A DNA stretch of 64,000 nt from Echinicola pacifica DSM 19836 (GTDB taxonomy: Bacteria > Bacteroidota > Bacteroidia > Cytophagales > Cyclobacteriaceae), in assembly GCF_000373245.1 (NCBI RefSeq), contig NZ_KB890755.1, forward strand, positions 47,762 to 111,761. Reading direction: 5' to 3'. Numbering within the stretch: position 1 is the stretch's first letter; each line of letters begins with the position of its first letter. The translations under genes and the position numbers were made by a program. Below the pieces are notes generated by a model. The model saw only the letters and a program-made list of their open reading frames with translations, searched no databases and was not told the DNA's origin. Shown here in pieces: positions 7,942-59,763 of this stretch.

Positions 7942-9372
7942 CTATTCACAGGAAATGCGCTGTAGGGTATTGTCCTGACCTTGATCATGAATCTCTCCGC
8001 AAGACTGGCCGCTCACCTCTTTGCTGCTTGCTGGCAGGTACACTGGGTATCCTGTCAGGTTGTTCAGGGTGATATTGCGGGCTTCGTGGTGGTTTTGGGA
8101 AGCATTATTTCCATGAAATAACCTAATATTGCCCTTATCGCCTCCCATCTGGATTTTCAGGTCGGGATTCACCTGGGCCTCAGAATTTCTCAAGGTAATC
8201 GTATGATTGCTGCCCGCAATATATGCCACGCTATGCATGCCATTATAGTATTCATCAATGGCCGGAAGAATGGTGATATCCGCATCGAACTGCTTATCAT
8301 TATTATAGGTACTCTGATATACAGGACCATAGGTGGCATCTGCACTGCAATTCACCACCTGACCGGAGCCTAGGGAATAGCCATTCTCACATCCGATGGC
8401 GGTGCAGCCTTCCACATATTTTGCTCCAGTAGCATGAGCCAGCGTCACGCCAGTCCGCATATATTTGATGGTACAGTTTAATACGGTTGGGTTGGAGGTT
8501 CCGCGCTCGTATTCCAAGCCATCGATCACGGTTTCGCCGGCATTATATGCGCGCACTCCCGCTTCCCCAAGGCTCAACATATATCCAGCGGGAAGCTTAT
8601 AGCCCCAAGCGGTCATGAGGCCCACCTTATCGGCAGGCGATCCACTGCCCTCTTCCGCAAGCATATCGTCTGTGGACCGCATTTCTCCCTCCACATAGCA
8701 GCCCTCCACCAGTGGATTGCTGGCAGCCTGCATGAAGATGCAGTGACCATAGGACCTATGGATCAAAGTGCAGTTTTTCACATGATTTGACTCCCCACGG
8801 ATCAGCAGTGCGCTATGCTTTTGATGAGCGATGACTGGCCCTCCCCCTTTGCCAAAGGCATCTCCGTAGCCATAAGGAAAAGAACCTTTCACCGTAATGT
8901 GAAATCCCTCCACCCGATTTGAGCGGCCATCCATCACGATATTACAGGCTCCTTTGGTTGGGGCATCATGGACAGATCCATCATCCACCAACCTGAGGTT
9001 TTTGAGAATATTATGGTTGCCAATAATCTGAATTTCATACACCTTATGATTTCCGAAGGACTTAAACACGGCAGTTTCCACATTGAGGGTGACGTCGGTG
9101 AAGTCATAAGTACTATTGTTCCCCTCAAATAATAATAGCACCTTACAGTCTCTCCCTGCGATCACCGTCTCCGAGGTGTATTTACCTTCCTCCACCTCTC
9201 TGGCAGTGATGGAGTAGCTGCCAGGCTTTAGCTTCACATGCACCTCATCCTTATCGAGATAGGGAAGTAATTCCTCCAGGGAACTCACCAGAGTCTGACC
9301 CATGCTGACGGAGGAAATCATGAAGAGTGCCATAAAAAGGCATTGGGGTATCCATTGCTTATACATATCCAT
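7942..9372 (-). CDS. Secreted right-handed parallel beta-helix protein, possible polysaccharide lyase or hydrolase
   Basis: A 476-residue protein with a Sec signal peptide (hydrophobic segment about residues 12-25, likely cleavage after SVSMGQ). The body is rich in short beta-helix rungs with repeated 'N-x-V-x-N-C' patterns (HVKNCTLIHRS, PLVEGCYVEG, TVLNCTIKYM, YVEGCTAIGC). This fold is shared by pectate lyases, PL6 enzymes and several glycoside hydrolases. No family-defining catalytic motif was recognised, so the substrate and even catalysis are open. No C-terminal sorting domain is visible. It follows the lyase at 9538 by 165 bases and precedes the sulfatase at 7764, so a role on the same glycan is inferred from context. 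Confidence 0.8.
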   Translation of the reverse strand: MDMYKQWIPQCLFMALFMISSVSMGQTLVSSLEELLPYLDKDEVHVKLKPGSYSITAREVEEGKYTSETVIAGRDCKVLLLFEGNNSTYDFTDVTLNVETAVFKSFGNHKVYEIQIIGNHNILKNLRLVDDGSVHDAPTKGACNIVMDGRSNRVEGFHITVKGSFPYGYGDAFGKGGGPVIAHQKHSALLIRGESNHVKNCTLIHRSYGHCIFMQAASNPLVEGCYVEGEMRSTDDMLAEEGSGSPADKVGLMTAWGYKLPAGYMLSLGEAGVRAYNAGETVIDGLEYERGTSNPTVLNCTIKYMRTGVTLAHATGAKYVEGCTAIGCENGYSLGSGQVVNCSADATYGPVYQSTYNNDKQFDADITILPAIDEYYNGMHSVAYIAGSNHTITLRNSEAQVNPDLKIQMGGDKGNIRLFHGNNASQNHHEARNITLNNLTGYPVYLPASSKEVSGQSCGEIHDQGQDNTLQRISCE

Positions 9373-47798: not shown

Positions 47799-48839
47799 TC
47801 ATAATACCTCCTGGATACTTTCCAACAGTAGTTTTTCCATGATTTGATAGCCTTCCAGGCTTGGATGCACGGTATCCCGCCCAAGGCCTGGCTTCAAGGC
47901 CTTATTTTCATCCACCATAGGGCTATAATAATCGAGGTATTTCAGGTTGTTTTTTAAGGCATATTCAGCCAGGATCTTATTGATGGCTAGGATATCTTCT
48001 GATGGGGCGATCCCCGGTCGCCAGGAATAATTTGCCGCAGGCAGTACTGAGCATAGGATTACCTTCAGCCCCTTAGCCTGTGCCAGCTCAGCCATGGAAA
48101 AAATATTTCCGGTGATCTGAGGGATGGTCGAAGGGCCCCGATTAGCCGCCAGATCATTAGTACCGCCAAGGATGGCGACCACTTGTGGCTCCAGCGCTAA
48201 GACATCCTGCCTGAAGCGTAGCAGCATCTGAGCCGTGGTCTGTCCGGAAATACCTCGGTTTATCAGGGGATTATCCTTGAAAAAAGCGGAATCTGCGCGC
48301 TCCCAGGATTCAGTAATGGAGTCTCCCATTAATACTGTCACAGGTTTCTTCTTTTTTGCAAGCAGCTGTTCGTTGGCAGCTTTATATTTGGAAAGGTTTG
48401 GCCAATCATCTGAAGGGATCATATGCATTTTCACCACTGCATCTTCAGCCATTTTAGCCGAATTGGGTAGTAATATACGGTCGCCCTCTGGGCTCAGCTC
48501 CAGCGGCGTATCTGGTAGCAGCCAGGCCTCCAGTACAAGTAAACTCTTATCCACAGTAAGGCTTCCATCCGCAGGCCACTGATCCACATGGGCATAGTAA
48601 ACCGACTTCTTTTTGGAATAGGAGCCCCATTCTGGGGAATCTGAAAAAACAATAGGATCACCATAATCCCCTTGGTCAGGCTTCCCTTGCTGGGCCCAGC
48701 CAAAGAGAGGAAGCAGGAGAAAAAGTCCAATTGCGCAGCTAACCCTCCATGGGCTGTGTGGCCTGAGCAGTGAGTCCATATGCTTGCATTTTTTGGGCAT
48801 AGAGGCCTTTAAAGCCATAGATTTAGGGTCAATCATCAT
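47799..48839 (-). CDS. SGNH/GDSL esterase with an N-terminal GH29-type beta-sandwich
   Basis: A 346-residue secreted hydrolase. The SGNH core (about 165-346) has the standard order: GDSITE (Ser174), the NRGISGQTT block, GGTND (Asn228) and DTVHP (Asp322, His325). Inferred role is glycan deacylation. The N-terminal module (about 58-140) contains EWGSYSKKKSVYYAHVDQWP and matches the C-terminal module of the GH29 enzyme at 51282 (DWGRYTTKDGVIYAHVFDIP) in spacing and pattern. The ATG at 48839 overlaps the upstream stop by 4 bases (ATGA), implying coupling. Met21 (48779) would give a shorter signal region and cannot be excluded. It lies 84 bases before the lyase at 47714. Confidence 0.9.
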   Translation of the reverse strand: MMIDPKSMALKASMPKKCKHMDSLLRPHSPWRVSCAIGLFLLLPLFGWAQQGKPDQGDYGDPIVFSDSPEWGSYSKKKSVYYAHVDQWPADGSLTVDKSLLVLEAWLLPDTPLELSPEGDRILLPNSAKMAEDAVVKMHMIPSDDWPNLSKYKAANEQLLAKKKKPVTVLMGDSITESWERADSAFFKDNPLINRGISGQTTAQMLLRFRQDVLALEPQVVAILGGTNDLAANRGPSTIPQITGNIFSMAELAQAKGLKVILCSVLPAANYSWRPGIAPSEDILAINKILAEYALKNNLKYLDYYSPMVDENKALKPGLGRDTVHPSLEGYQIMEKLLLESIQEVL

Positions 48840-53509: not shown

Positions 53510-55171
53510 TTAATCTTCTTTATAGTTTAGCACCTGCCCGTCTTCCTGAAGTTTGCTCTTCAGCAGCTCATAATCCAGCTGATGCAGGCTCACTTTATTT
53601 TCCATACTCAATACGGCGGCGGTGGCGGCACTCTGTCCCAAAATCATAAACACAGGCTCCATCCGCACCGAGCCAAAAGCGGTATGGGAAGCGGAGACGC
53701 ATACTGGCACCAAAAGATTTTTGCATTCATTTTCCTTCGGCAAAATAGTCCCAAGTCCTATCTTATACGGTCCTTTGAGGTGTACCCCTAGATCCCCTTC
53801 ATTCTGCACATAGCCATCAGGCTTGATATACCGCTGTACATTATGCGAGTCAATGGTATAGGAGCCCATTCCAATAGATTTGGGGGTATTATAGGCCAAG
53901 GTGACGTCATGCTCGGTAAGCACATATTCGCCCTGCATGCGGCGAGCCTCACGGATATAAAGCTGATGAGGCCAATGGTTATTATCGGTAAACTCATCCT
54001 TTGCCAAGCCCCATTGCTTCACCTCGTCCTGCACGTCTTTAGGCATACGAGGGTCATTAGCCATGAAATAAAGCATACCTTTTTGGTAGTCCTCATGCTG
54101 CTTTATGATCTCCCTTCTTCGGGCATAACTCGCATCTGGGTAATCGTAATTTTTTCCAATATTATCACTGCTAAATGGCCCATGATTATTGGTATCTGTT
54201 TTCTTATTAGGTATAGGGTCAAACTTCGTAAAAGTCTCTCTCCACCCCGATTGGAATACCCGAAGCATGAGTTCATATTGGGAAGGATCATAGTTTTCTG
54301 GTTTGGGGAAAGGCAGTCTATTCTCTGGCAGGTCGGTCATGCACAGCCGAAAACAATAGGCTTGGATGCGATGGTCTCCCTCGCCTTTTTGCCCGGGATC
54401 CTCCACGGAGATAAGTGGCAATACTCCACTGAGCGGATCACCAGGGACCACATAAGGGGATATATCTTTCTTATACCAATGGTCATGATGAAGTACTCCG
54501 GTCTGCACGCCATTCCAGTTTTCGCCATAGCGCTCATTGGACTCTCTGCCCACGGTATAGGACACGCCGGCGCTGGCCATCAGGTCTCCCTCATAGGTGG
54601 CATCTATGAACATCTTGCCGGTATATTCAGCACCACTGAGCGTTTGGATCGACTGGATGCTTCCGTCGATGACCTGTACTCCATGGTCCCGATCGAGCCA
54701 TTCATCCTTATAGATTTCTATGGAATAATCGGCAATAAAATCCTCAAAAACTTGCTCTGCAATATGCGGTTCAAAAATCCACATGGTACGCTTATCCCCA
54801 TCCATGGCCACTGTTCCTTGGCCTTTATTGCCATATTCCGATTTCTTCTGCCAGTTCCAGCTATCATCGGACTGGTAGTAATCATAGATGCGCTGATAAA
54901 ACTCACGGGAAAGCCCGCCGATTACCTCTTTATTTCCGGTATCGCTAAAGCCCAGCCCACCGGAAGATAGGCCACCCAGATGGCGATCGGGTGATACGAT
55001 GATGACGGACTTACCCATCTTCCGCACTTGCACTGCTGCCACCACCGCGGCGGAGGTCCCCCCATAGATGATTACATCGGCAGATTTTGTCTTTGCAGGA
55101 TTTGCAGACTGAGCATGGCTGGTATAGTTTAGGGTCAAAAATAATACTAATCCTAAAAGGTATTTTTTCAT
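53510..55171 (-). CDS. Secreted FAD-dependent oxidoreductase (FAD_oxidored type)
   Basis: A 553-residue exported protein (signal ending SHAQS). The N-terminal dinucleotide fold reads DVIIYGGTSAAVVAAVQVRK with a degenerate glycine motif, followed by HLGGLSSGGLGFSDTG typical of this family. The C-terminal FAD contact region is ASHTAFGSVRMEPVFMILGQSAATAA. Relatives occur often in Bacteroidota glycan loci, sometimes annotated as xanthan-lyase-like, but the reaction is not settled. Oxidation of a sugar hydroxyl is an inference. It lies 37 bases after GH88 and 7 bases before the DUF1961 gene, within the enzyme operon. Confidence 0.87.
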   Translation of the reverse strand: MKKYLLGLVLFLTLNYTSHAQSANPAKTKSADVIIYGGTSAAVVAAVQVRKMGKSVIIVSPDRHLGGLSSGGLGFSDTGNKEVIGGLSREFYQRIYDYYQSDDSWNWQKKSEYGNKGQGTVAMDGDKRTMWIFEPHIAEQVFEDFIADYSIEIYKDEWLDRDHGVQVIDGSIQSIQTLSGAEYTGKMFIDATYEGDLMASAGVSYTVGRESNERYGENWNGVQTGVLHHDHWYKKDISPYVVPGDPLSGVLPLISVEDPGQKGEGDHRIQAYCFRLCMTDLPENRLPFPKPENYDPSQYELMLRVFQSGWRETFTKFDPIPNKKTDTNNHGPFSSDNIGKNYDYPDASYARRREIIKQHEDYQKGMLYFMANDPRMPKDVQDEVKQWGLAKDEFTDNNHWPHQLYIREARRMQGEYVLTEHDVTLAYNTPKSIGMGSYTIDSHNVQRYIKPDGYVQNEGDLGVHLKGPYKIGLGTILPKENECKNLLVPVCVSASHTAFGSVRMEPVFMILGQSAATAAVLSMENKVSLHQLDYELLKSKLQEDGQVLNYKED

Positions 55172-55208: not shown

Positions 55209-56393
55209 TCAAAGTCCCATTTTCTTCAGCTTGAGAAGGGCTTCCATAAAATAATAGTCGGCATAGACGATGGGTACATCTACTTCGGACTTTTTCGGCA
55301 TATGCCCAGTGGAATGTAGCAAAATAGCGTCATTCTTATCCCCAGCCAGATAGCGGTCCGTGGACAGCTCCGTCAATAGGCTGATGGCTACTTTTTGGTA
55401 TTCTTTTTCCTTCTTTTTATCATGGACCAATTGAGAAAGCTCTAATAATGCCGAGGACGCAATGGCCGCTGCAGAAGCATCCTTAGGAACATTAGGGATG
55501 TCGGGATCATCAAAATCCCAGTAGGGCACCTTGTCCTTTGGCAGGCGTTCAATAAAGTGATCCGCTAGCTTCTGGGCAGTTTCCAGAAATTTCTCCTCTT
55601 GGGTCTCGCGATAGCAGATGGTAAATCCATAGATCCCCCAGGTTTGGCCCCTAGCCCACATGGACTCATCAGCATAGCCTTGGTGGGTCTTGCCCTCTAA
55701 AAATTCCCCCGTGACATCATCAAATGAGGCCAGGTGGTAGATGGAATAATCATCTCTTATCAGGTTTTCCATGGATACTTCCGCATGGCGGGTCGCTATA
55801 TCTGCTAGCTCGCGGTCGCCTCCATTCTTTGCCGCCCAATACAGTAGCTCTAAATTCATCATATTATCGATGATGGTATTATGAGGGTACTGAGGCTTGC
55901 TTGGCCAGGAGTGAATGGTCCCCACCACCGGATTGTATAAGGTGGCTAAGGTGTCTGCTGAGGCTAGCAAAACCTCCTTATACTTAGGATTGCCCGTCAG
56001 CCTATAGCCATTACCATAGCTGCAATACATCATAAAACCAATATCATGATCGTTTGCAGGGCTTTTGGAGATTATCTCTAAGGCCTCCGTGTACTTTTCA
56101 GCCTCCTCCTTTAAGGATTCATCTTGGCTAAACTCATAACTATACCATAATACCCCGGGCCAAAATCCGCTGGTCCAACCGGTCACTTTGGTGCTCTCCC
56201 AATGCTGCTGGCCCTCAGGAATATTCCTAGGAAACAGGTCATACGTCTCCAAAAAAGGTAGGCTTCCCTTCACCTTTCCGATACAGTATTCCAGCACTTT
56301 ATCGGTATTCAGTTTGGTACTAGCCATGCTGAGCAGTCCAACGCAGCCTATCGCTAGCAATAAGATTCTAAAAGGCTTTACTAAATTTTGCAT
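55209..56393 (-). CDS. GH88 unsaturated glucuronyl hydrolase
   Basis: A 394-residue enzyme related to the one at 25833. The catalytic Asp motifs are NDHDIGF (Asp117) and HNTIIDNMMN (Asp176), with HQGYADESMWARGQTW. It removes the 4,5-unsaturated uronic acid from lyase products. The N-terminus is hydrophobic (about residues 8-24) and looks like a cleavable or anchoring signal. The mature part starts without the acidic spacer seen in the other GH88 lipoprotein. It follows the SGNH gene by 130 bases. A perfect palindrome TAAATCGATTTA lies 89 bases upstream, so it probably starts its own transcript with the FAD, DUF1961 and GH29 genes. Confidence 0.94.
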   Translation of the reverse strand: MQNLVKPFRILLLAIGCVGLLSMASTKLNTDKVLEYCIGKVKGSLPFLETYDLFPRNIPEGQQHWESTKVTGWTSGFWPGVLWYSYEFSQDESLKEEAEKYTEALEIISKSPANDHDIGFMMYCSYGNGYRLTGNPKYKEVLLASADTLATLYNPVVGTIHSWPSKPQYPHNTIIDNMMNLELLYWAAKNGGDRELADIATRHAEVSMENLIRDDYSIYHLASFDDVTGEFLEGKTHQGYADESMWARGQTWGIYGFTICYRETQEEKFLETAQKLADHFIERLPKDKVPYWDFDDPDIPNVPKDASAAAIASSALLELSQLVHDKKKEKEYQKVAISLLTELSTDRYLAGDKNDAILLHSTGHMPKKSEVDVPIVYADYYFMEALLKLKKMGL

Positions 56394-56523: not shown

Positions 56524-57246
56524 TTACTGCCCCAAGAATTCACGTAGATATCCGGGATATCCACCGAGACTGTCCTCTGCTCTCTGCTGATCACCCACTC
56601 CTTTGGTCAATGAATCCCCAAAACACAGTACTGACTGATCCTCAGTCATCGCAGTCTCCTTTTTTATAAATTGATATAATGCGCTTGCCATAAATCTATA
56701 TCCCAAACTGGTGAGATGGACTCCATCTTCCAGCCCGCTATTGTATTTGTTACGGATAAATAAATCCGAATTGTGAGCGGGAAGGTTTCTATCGGAGAAG
56801 GCTTTATTTAGGTCAAAATAATAATAGCCTGAATCCACCGCCAGTTGCTTCATCCGCATACGCACCGCGTCAATTCTGTCATTTGGGGCGATATCGGCGG
56901 AATCTCCAGGATGGCGCTGCCGAAGATAAATCTCATCCACGGGCGGTGGGCTCATCAGGATTATTGTGCTGCCATTGGAGGAAATTCGCCGCGTGATTTC
57001 CATCAAATTATCGGTGTAATCCTCCAATGAAACTCTTTTCTTCGAATTCAACATATCATTGGTCCCCACCATTATGATCACCCAGTCGGGATGAAAGGCC
57101 AAGACATCATGGTCTACACGATCGAGCAGGTCTCGCGAAGTATTGCCACTCTGGCCTGCATTCAGCCATTTACCTGAACCTTGGGCATTCATATGCTGGA
57201 TAGACGCAGCCCACAGCGCTATTACTATCCATCCTTTACTGATCAT
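56524..57246 (-). CDS. Circularly permuted SGNH/GDSL hydrolase
   Basis: A 240-residue secreted protein (signal ending HMNAQG). The SGNH blocks occur in permuted order: block II NAGQSGNTS (about 29-37), block III VGTND (Asn63), block V EDGVHLT (Asp174, His177) and only then block I VLCFGDSLTKGVGD (Ser212) near the C-terminus, ending YPGYLREFLGQ. Joining that end to the mature N-terminus (GSGKWLNAGQSGN) restores the normal order. All four catalytic elements are present, so activity on acylated glycan is plausible. The start at 57246 overlaps the lyase stop in an ATGA arrangement, and the signal peptide abuts block II, which argues against a simple truncation. Confidence 0.88.
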   Translation of the reverse strand: MISKGWIVIALWAASIQHMNAQGSGKWLNAGQSGNTSRDLLDRVDHDVLAFHPDWVIIMVGTNDMLNSKKRVSLEDYTDNLMEITRRISSNGSTIILMSPPPVDEIYLRQRHPGDSADIAPNDRIDAVRMRMKQLAVDSGYYYFDLNKAFSDRNLPAHNSDLFIRNKYNSGLEDGVHLTSLGYRFMASALYQFIKKETAMTEDQSVLCFGDSLTKGVGDQQRAEDSLGGYPGYLREFLGQ

Positions 57247-59735
57247 TGTGCTGTTTCGGTCTGCTGGCTTCCATCTTTGGCTATTTTGGTAAAGTCCACG
57301 GTGACAGGTGCTTTTGGGTTTTGTAAGTTCCTGATCTTAATGATATGCTGGCTCCCATCTTTCATCTTCACCATTATTTGCTCTGGATTATCATTGCTGA
57401 TACTCTCCACCTGCGCTGCACCAGAATGAGGCTCTATCAAATTAATAAAAACGGCTTGTGTGCCTTCTTCCCGAATCAGGTAAGTTCTCCTATCAGGGTT
57501 ATTCCTGATGTCCCTTTGCTTGCCCCCATTGGCATAGGTGGCGAGCATGGAAGTACCTTCCTTTGGCCATAAGGTATGCAGATCCATCGCATGCCCCTGA
57601 TCTTCAAAACTCAGCCTAGCCCTATCTCCGAAGGAATACCATTGGCCCTGACTGAAATACTTATAAGGACTGCTATGATCGGTGCTTACCGAATCCAGCA
57701 AGCCTCCCTTCGGCGATGCCCTCTGAATGTCCCTGAAACCGACAGGGTGGAAAAGCCAGTCATAGGTCCTGCTTTCCTCCGCTTCCATAAAATCCGCTAA
57801 AATAAGGTAGTCATCAGTCAGCACCGTAAGTCTTCGCTGAAATACTGGACTGTGTTCTGGCAGGTAATCCTTATCATCCCAAGGGGGAAATTTATCGATA
57901 TTAAAGGTAGGAATCTCCCTCCACCTGGCCCTAACCTCTATCATATTGGCTTGCAGCAGTTGTCCGCTGTATAGCATCACCTGATATGCAGGAATTGCTT
58001 CTTGTTGCATTTCGTCCACCACCACCATATTATGAGCAGCGGAGGTCTGTACAAATTCCTTATACCCCGGGCTTCCATAGCCAAACCAGGCCATTTCGGT
58101 CCCAAAATAATGATGTCCATCCTTATTGATATCCAAGAGGGCAGTCCGATCAAAATGGCCATGCCAACCCCCATGGGTTCCATACTTGGTATATACCTCA
58201 AATTGTTTTTCTGAATCGTCTTTAATTCCTTGAGCTCGTAAGGCTGTCAACCCCACATTGGGAAGGCTGGCGGTCGCCATTCGGGGATCTTCGGCAAGCG
58301 GGAGCTCATCGATACCATACATCAGGGCCTCCCAGCTGTCCCGCTCCGAATGAGACAGTACCCAGGCTAGCTCGGGACTCCGGTAAGCTCGGTAAGCAAT
58401 CTCATAAAATGGATGCGGTGAGGTCAGCACTCCGTCATTATTCGCCACCAGATTGGCCGAATTATCCATCATGGGAATATAGGCATGAGCCATATCTGAA
58501 AGGCTTCTGCTAGGCTGCTTGACAGGTCCCCAAATTTCAAATTTCATCCCTGTAAAGCCTTCCTTCACTGTATCGAAATCCTTACTTTTATACTTATAGG
58601 GGAAAGGATAATGGTAGATATCCCAACCATAATTGGATAAAGCCTGGGCGGCCAGAAGGTACTTATGAGTGACCAGATAGCAATAGCCGGGAGTCCCCTC
58701 AAACCACCATCCATCGGACATGACACCGCGACCAATCTGGTCTGCCATGCCACCGTCAGCCTTTATCATAAAGTGAATCGCCTCTATATCCTCTAGAAAC
58801 AAGGCCACCATCAATGCGCCCACATTGGCACTTGCCTGATGATTCATGATCCCCAGAGAGGACATATGCTCTCTGCTGGTATGGAGAAAATGCTTCATGG
58901 TGTTTTCAATATCAGATTTTTCCTGCTCTGAGAATACCTCCTCCTCATACAGGAGATCACATAATGCGGCATAAAATTGAAAAAATCCTCCTTCATGCAC
59001 CTGTACCCCGGAGGTCGCCGCACCGATGGACAGATAGCCTGCCTCTGCATCAGCAACTTCCAGTATTAGTTTCTTTAATTTCTCAAGGTACTCCTGATTA
59101 CCAAAAAGTTTGTATGCCAATCCCACTTTGAAGGCAATTTCCATATCCTGAGGGGAATAATTGAGGCTCGACCAGACCTTGGTGGGGCGGGCTTTGGTGA
59201 TTACCTCTCGTTTTGGCACCTCATAATTATCGGCAAGATTTTTTAATTCTAAAGCGTTTTCTTTGGCCCAGGGGGCCGTCTTTATTTTAATGCCAGCTTC
59301 CTGTAAAAGCTCTGGATTGACCAATAAAAATGGGTGGGATTTTGACCTTACTGTAAATAGGTCAAAGTAAGTCAGTAGCTTTTCATCCCTTGATTTCACC
59401 AATAGCCTTGCATTTTCATACGCTCCTTTTGGATAGTTTTCATTGATATCCACCAGGACTTTTTGCTCCATGGAGGAGCCTGCGGGCAAGGTAATTTCTT
59501 TGTTTTCTATATGATAAGTAAAGCCCAGTGCTTCGGGCTCATTGAAGGCTAAACTTAGCTGTTGGGACTGATTTGTTGGATTGTTTAGGGTAATGCGATG
59601 TTCGATGGTACTTCCTGCATCACCGGCTTTGGAGGATATCCCCACAGGGAATTCCTGCCCCAGGCATGGCAGACTGATCCATACGCATAAACTTAGCAGT
59701 AATCCTAAACGGAGGGTTATTTTGGGAGTAAGCAT
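57243..59735 (-). CDS. Heparinase II/III-fold lyase with N-terminal Ig-like domain
   Basis: About 830 residues from the ATG at 59735, which gives a compact signal peptide (MLTPKITLRLGLLLSLCVWI, ending LGQE); an ATG at 59762 would add nine residues. A beta domain of about 110 residues comes first (ITLNNPTNQSQQLSLAF). The helical toroid then carries MNHQASANVGAL and FEGTPGYCYLVTHKY. The beta-sandwich has THGGWHGHFDRTALLDI (about 520-535) and SAAHNMVVVDE, variants of the superfamily His motifs. It is distinct from the other five lyases. It is the first enzyme after the second SusCD pair, behind a hairpin, and is coupled to the permuted SGNH gene by a 4-base overlap. Confidence 0.85.
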   Translation of the reverse strand: MLTPKITLRLGLLLSLCVWISLPCLGQEFPVGISSKAGDAGSTIEHRITLNNPTNQSQQLSLAFNEPEALGFTYHIENKEITLPAGSSMEQKVLVDINENYPKGAYENARLLVKSRDEKLLTYFDLFTVRSKSHPFLLVNPELLQEAGIKIKTAPWAKENALELKNLADNYEVPKREVITKARPTKVWSSLNYSPQDMEIAFKVGLAYKLFGNQEYLEKLKKLILEVADAEAGYLSIGAATSGVQVHEGGFFQFYAALCDLLYEEEVFSEQEKSDIENTMKHFLHTSREHMSSLGIMNHQASANVGALMVALFLEDIEAIHFMIKADGGMADQIGRGVMSDGWWFEGTPGYCYLVTHKYLLAAQALSNYGWDIYHYPFPYKYKSKDFDTVKEGFTGMKFEIWGPVKQPSRSLSDMAHAYIPMMDNSANLVANNDGVLTSPHPFYEIAYRAYRSPELAWVLSHSERDSWEALMYGIDELPLAEDPRMATASLPNVGLTALRAQGIKDDSEKQFEVYTKYGTHGGWHGHFDRTALLDINKDGHHYFGTEMAWFGYGSPGYKEFVQTSAAHNMVVVDEMQQEAIPAYQVMLYSGQLLQANMIEVRARWREIPTFNIDKFPPWDDKDYLPEHSPVFQRRLTVLTDDYLILADFMEAEESRTYDWLFHPVGFRDIQRASPKGGLLDSVSTDHSSPYKYFSQGQWYSFGDRARLSFEDQGHAMDLHTLWPKEGTSMLATYANGGKQRDIRNNPDRRTYLIREEGTQAVFINLIEPHSGAAQVESISNDNPEQIMVKMKDGSQHIIKIRNLQNPKAPVTVDFTKIAKDGSQQTETAQ

Positions 59736-59763
59736 AGTTTGGGAATAAATCAATAAAACCAAG

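Follow-up and report, generated by a model that had tools for sequence, protein, structure and literature searches.

A stretch of 64,000 nucleotides from Echinicola pacifica DSM 19836 (hereafter the window, at its full length) carries on its reverse strand, at 56524..57246, an ATG-initiated gene for a 240-residue protein of the SGNH superfamily whose conserved blocks run in the order II-III-V-I. The chain is circularly permuted: the catalytic residues are encountered in the order G-N-H-S rather than the usual S-G-N-H, and the serine block stands at the C-terminus. We consider it probable that this is a secreted, single-domain SGNH hydrolase that employs a Ser212-His177-Asp174 triad to hydrolyse an O-acyl ester on oligosaccharides.

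All the blocks expected of the superfamily are present. Block II (GQSGN, residues 31-35; 57142..57156) supplies the oxyanion residue Gly34, block III (GTND, residues 61-64; 57055..57066) conforms to GxND and supplies Asn63, and block V (DGVH, residues 174-177; 56716..56727) conforms to DxxH and supplies Asp174 and His177. Block I (CFGDS within CFGDSLTKG, residues 208-212; 56611..56625), with GDSL at residues 210-213, places the nucleophile Ser212 28 residues before the C-terminus, inside a tail (residues 201-240; 56527..56646) made up of the displaced strand beta1, block I and helix alpha1. At the other end, a hydrophobic N-terminus, by eye a probable signal peptide (residues 1-21; 57184..57246), runs directly into block II, and the match to the domain PF13472 begins at residue 22. 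All these features lie on the reverse strand. The original prediction had described this block order with a C-terminal serine block, the direct junction of signal peptide and block II, and the retention of Ser212, Gly34, Asn63, Asp174 and His177, and we found the sequence to be as described on each count.

Evidence for a complete permutation

The most direct evidence comes from rearranging the protein in silico. In its native order it is clearly a member of the superfamily, scoring 90.7 bits against PF13472 (Lipase_GDSL_2; cut-off 32.9), and the match is broken into two stretches, the better of which covers profile positions 30-177. Once rotated, so that residues 201-240 precede residues 23-200, the same protein matches in one stretch, from position 1 to 177 of 178, at 100.5 bits. 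This unbroken match bears out the earlier proposal that the permutation is complete.

We also opened the mature protein at each position in turn and scored the resulting sequences against a hidden Markov model (HMM) of canonical SGNH proteins, built from 88 sequences that had been selected for a GDS-like motif ahead of the body. The top single-domain score was 127.6 bits, compared with 114.0 for the native order and a median of 96.6, and the best opening points fell at mature residues 175-181, directly ahead of the serine strand. Rotation increased the score against this model in all 42 of the permuted members aligned, by a mean of 7.5 bits for the whole sequence and 14.2 bits for the best domain. 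The gain on rotation and the scan of opening points together rule out a chance occurrence of the serine motif.

The reverse test gave an equally clear result. An HMM of the permuted family was applied to 88 canonical SGNH open reading frames (ORFs) whose bodies scored 45 bits or more, a set in which a few genes are present twice (two pairs confirmed). Of these, 77 matched as tail then body and none as body then tail, no separate tail segment being reported for the other 11; in several of the 88 the tail and body pieces abut. Among 45 permuted ORFs, the permuted order covers the family model in 43, the exceptions being one with a frame break (L002) and one partial ORF (L059). The window holds its own internal reference for the normal block order, a canonical SGNH gene (47799..48839, reverse strand) whose SGNH domain, at about residues 170-336, lies behind a further N-terminal region.

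Conservation, predicted fold and origin

These 45 ORFs share the architecture across several phyla and, as L007 is identical to L047, represent 44 distinct genes; two further permuted ORFs (L142 and L143) lie outside the 45-ORF analysis. Among the 80 loci listed, permuted members occur in Bacteroidota, Lentisphaerota, Planctomycetota (Gimesia) and Acidobacteriota. With the single protein as query, 12 of 195 related genomes gave a strong match (E of 1.5e-26 or lower; next 5.1e-12). Four of 395 genomes exceeded 250 bits in a phylum-wide sample (next 85, with at most seven candidates scored per genome), and four of 395 matched at E of 1e-40 or lower in a class-wide sample. These three samples overlap, and the genome of E. 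pacifica itself is counted in each. The same single query found no relative on viral contigs, and on plasmids there were two weak matches, neither reaching 80% query coverage.

The catalytic residues are nearly invariant in an alignment of 42 of the 45 ORFs, from which the frame-broken, partial and duplicate (L047) sequences had been dropped. All 42 rows keep the Asp and His of block V, Gly31 of block II and the Gly and Asp of block I, while Asn63 and Gly34 are each found in 41 and Ser212 in 38. All five deviant rows are proteins that carry an alpha/beta-hydrolase-like domain after the permuted SGNH domain: four have Asn in place of Ser (L006, L009, L011 and L012), and in the fifth (L010) Asn63 is replaced by His and Gly34 by Asn. 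Since each fused member has lost one or more catalytic residues, the SGNH site looks degenerate in this branch. The second domain of all five shows, by eye, a GHSYGG motif; L010, the sole fused member scanned against Pfam, gave weak matches to glucuronoyl-esterase and dienelactone-hydrolase models, below the cut-off.

Purifying selection acts on the serine tail, with a constraint like that of the body in seven pairs compared, although synonymous divergence was unsaturated in both parts for one pair only (L005/L008), in which the tail counts are small. These sequence comparisons support a conserved and selected family rather than a degraded tandem pair, the outcome that the original prediction had named as fatal to it and that the conserved order and tail selection contradict.

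Structure prediction is consistent with a tail that folds back into the core. The AlphaFold2 model of the mature protein, made with 42 sequences, has a mean predicted local distance difference test score (pLDDT) of 92.1 and a predicted template modelling score (pTM) of 0.91. In it the block I segment forms a strand at mature residues 185-189 (block mean pLDDT 95), and the C-terminal helix scores 87. Sequential structural aligners match mature residues 1-182 to SGNH esterases (best Foldseek E 3.4e-8), and among the 50 rows listed 46 SGNH alignments end by residue 183, while four rows to Axe2 reach residue 219. When the tail was removed from the query, with the other 41 alignment rows keeping theirs, the prediction was still confident (94.9); the strand at residues 6-10 (beta2) disappeared from the DSSP assignment, and that at 34-38 shortened to 34-37. 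The SGNH sheet has the strand order 2-1-3-4-5, in which beta2 is an edge strand that pairs solely with beta1. Loss of beta2 is therefore to be expected if the tail strand fills the beta1 slot, and the comparison thus fits, as indirect evidence, a serine strand that occupies this canonical position.

Several observations weigh against our interpretation. Ser191 of the mature protein lies in a ten-residue block with a mean pLDDT of 76, followed by a block at 69, and among the matches listed by sequence searches of the PDB (in one of them, the best 60 of 70) no solved chain matches body and tail unbroken. The five fused members indicate that the fold can persist without a full catalytic site. In a relative of the same genus (G010), the permuted gene (L002) is frame-broken ahead of the serine block, so the gene may be dispensable. 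Finally, we found no biochemical data on members of the permuted family.

The broken copy (1459-2250 in L002; 9084-9850 in L144) is 53% identical to the E. pacifica protein, compared with 78-82% for the neighbouring GH88 and flavin adenine dinucleotide (FAD) oxidoreductase proteins, and at the L144 locus the search for a counterpart of the adjacent heparinase-like gene gave no match. It may represent decay, replacement, a sequencing error or a split enzyme.

Tandem duplication is a standard route to circular permutation, and the original prediction had suggested that duplication followed by trimming could have produced this gene. That origin is possible in principle and finds no support in our data. 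In the motif list, none of the 45 ORFs has an additional N-terminal block I of GDS type, and eight extended or divergent members read whole, and L051 read in part, revealed none either. Two permuted loci (L050 and, weakly, L036) have a separate canonical SGNH gene, not in tandem. We also built quick maximum-likelihood trees from a rotated set of 42 permuted and 47 canonical rows. In the free tree, one canonical group falls among the permuted rows, and the starred branches force two changes; keeping the permuted rows in a single group improves the likelihood by 20.5 log units (approximately unbiased test, p-AU 0.784). Given this better likelihood and p value, a single origin of the permuted rows is compatible with the sequences, if not proven by them.

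Genomic neighbourhood and probable role

The gene lies within a locus that appears dedicated to the breakdown of a sulfated polysaccharide. Immediately upstream is a heparinase II/III-like gene (57243..59762, reverse strand; PF07940, 25.6 bits against a cut-off of 24) whose end, with the stop codon, runs 4 bases into the start (ATG) of the permuted gene. Downstream, after a gap of 130 bases, too small to hold another SGNH copy, is a gene resembling unsaturated glucuronyl hydrolases of glycoside hydrolase family 88 (GH88; 55209..56393, reverse strand; PF07470), followed by an FAD-dependent oxidoreductase (53510..55171, reverse strand; PF12831), a recurrent neighbour of the permuted family. By Pfam, the window also encodes five sulfatases, an alpha-L-fucosidase and a GH97 enzyme in addition to GH88. 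Three heparinase II/III-like proteins score above the Pfam cut-off (at 57243, 27114 and 44922), another falls just below it (11540), and two more were recognised by eye without a Pfam match (9538 and 21519), as were SusC/SusD-like proteins.

The association with the FAD oxidoreductase extends well beyond this genome. A homologue accompanies 17 of 30 permuted genes (weakly in L032) and none of 50 canonical SGNH genes in loci of similar mean length; the Fisher p value of 1.2e-9 serves only as a guide, given the non-independence of the loci and the different taxa in the two sets. The homologue is also found in both Acidobacteriota loci (L057 and L058), where it is the second gene along, and in several loci its ORF overlaps or nearly touches the permuted gene. 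Among 12 larger regions fetched from further genomes it occurs in four, and the three of these that belong to the fused clade lack it. A Pfam scan of 49 of the 101 listed neighbours, from 26 loci and with two second neighbours among the 49, assigned 14 to FAD_oxidored. An NCBIfam scan of neighbours gave no informative name, neither the FAD enzyme nor the upstream lyase-like protein had a relative in a sequence search of the PDB, and a literature search for this FAD family beside permuted SGNH genes gave nothing useful.

Other unusual gene arrangements were seen among the collected loci. In Arcticibacter svalbardensis (L031, 4621-6624), a beta-helix protein precedes the permuted SGNH domain in frame, and its beta-helix part resembles the product of 7942-9372 in the window (35% identity). 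An ORF of 1562 residues (L051, 1819-6504) has the permuted domain at its end, its first 1300 residues having no Pfam match at E of 0.01 or lower, and a canonical SGNH domain lies behind a region that by eye is like the window's alpha-L-fucosidase (L022, 1489-3471, reverse strand).

From this setting, the permuted protein would most likely act as a secreted esterase that removes O-acyl groups, most likely acetyl, from carbohydrates, within a locus for the utilization of a sulfated polysaccharide. The order G-N-H-S would result from opening the chain in the alpha1-beta2 loop and connecting the former C-terminal helix to the former N-terminal strand by a short linker, eight residues long in the model. 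The beta1-Ser-alpha1 unit, now last in the chain, would re-insert between beta2 and beta3 and bring Ser212 to His177 and Asp174, with Gly34 and Asn63 forming the oxyanion hole. The presumed substrate is an O-acyl ester, most likely O-acetyl, on oligosaccharides released from a sulfated polysaccharide containing fucose and uronate, and its removal may clear the way for the lyases, GH88 enzyme and fucosidase of the locus.

Given the recurrent FAD neighbour, a bolder alternative to O-deacetylation deserves consideration, although we regard it as unlikely: the protein may be a lactonase, or another ester hydrolase, that acts on the product of the oxidoreductase. The association described above, including both Acidobacteriota loci, speaks for it. 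However, the partner is absent in 13 of the 30 loci (six of them shorter than 8 kb) and from the fused-clade regions, and the PDB search offered no solved relative of the FAD enzyme. A broader proposal is doubtful, though to be taken somewhat seriously, namely that the G-N-H-S proteins are a hitherto undescribed SGNH branch of single origin, found in four phyla or more and adapted to partner the FAD oxidoreductase (for example, sugar oxidation and then lactone or ester hydrolysis), with one branch that became degenerate and fused to an alpha/beta-hydrolase.

It also seems decidedly unlikely that the permuted fold is correct and yet the protein is no hydrolase in vivo, being instead an acyltransferase or a carbohydrate-binding pseudoenzyme. 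The other permuted SGNH groups that we found in print act in polysaccharide O-acetylation, and Ser or Asn is lost in the fused clade. However, GDSL, GxND and DxxH are kept here, whereas AlgX and AlgJ are described as having Tyr for Asn and DxH; furthermore, none of the families listed for the 20 window proteins scanned is a membrane-bound acyltransferase, and catabolic families dominate among them. A domain-swapped dimer, in which each tail would be built into the partner chain, is very improbable: a strand and helix at the end of a chain are typically what is exchanged in such dimers, but the single-chain model places the tail strand with high confidence. A non-functional degraded tandem pair, in which the first block I was lost and the frame runs on into the beginning of another SGNH copy, has a negligible chance of being correct despite tandem duplication as a standard route to permutation and the frame-broken copy in the same genus, and is strongly contradicted by the order kept in 43 of 45 ORFs across several phyla, by the invariant residues and purifying selection of the tail, and by the 130-base gap to GH88. 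The O-acyl esterase is our preferred explanation.

Relationship to known permuted enzymes

Circularly permuted SGNH cores have been described before. In published accounts, AlgX, AlgJ, the DHHW protein PatB1 and WssI have a permuted core with the spatial triad kept, are opened between blocks III and V to give the order H-S-G-N where an order is stated, depart from the classical motifs (TDHHW in PatB1; in AlgX/AlgJ GTSYS, DxH and a Tyr in place of Asn), and act in O-acetylation, being held to be acyltransferases (PMC9487903, PMC4148444, PMC5697884, PMC10302187). The E. pacifica protein shares with them a permuted SGNH core and differs from them in its order, G-N-H-S, and its classical motifs. 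Membership of the AlgX or DHHW groups was rejected: the order is not H-S-G-N, and DxxH and Asn are present instead of DxH or TDHHW and Tyr. No AlgX or DHHW model was listed for it by Pfam at E of 10 or lower, a scan from which weak matches can be filtered out. As the AlgX precedent indicates that the superfamily is not defined by the order of its blocks, we file the protein as a permuted SGNH variant.

We did not find the G-N-H-S permutation described in the accessible literature, which mostly excluded subscription journals and did not include CDD or InterPro notes. Its newness is accordingly claimed within those sources. The SGNH superfamily is large and well studied, and is recognised by an N-terminal GDSL block. 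A natural, selected permutant with a C-terminal nucleophile would indicate that the fold can be opened at another point besides the one already known. Such a protein lends itself to comparative work on folding and engineering, and proteins of its kind are matched only in part by linear profile searches. The linkage to an FAD oxidoreductase, furthermore, makes a step in polysaccharide breakdown testable.

A catalytic nucleophile that permutation has moved from the N- to the C-terminus has a parallel in the permuted NlpC/P60 enzymes, such as LRAT and YaeF/YiiX (PMC3142127). This is an analogy only, the fold there being that of papain-like cysteine enzymes and unrelated to SGNH. Also among the closest known systems are the Lipase_GDSL_2 enzymes themselves (PF13472), for example the acetylxylan esterases Axe2 and AlAXEase. 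They share with the permuted protein blocks I, II, III and V, and the alpha/beta/alpha fold is matched over mature residues 1-182; unlike those enzymes, the permuted protein has block I at its C-terminus and its chain opened in the alpha1-beta2 loop.
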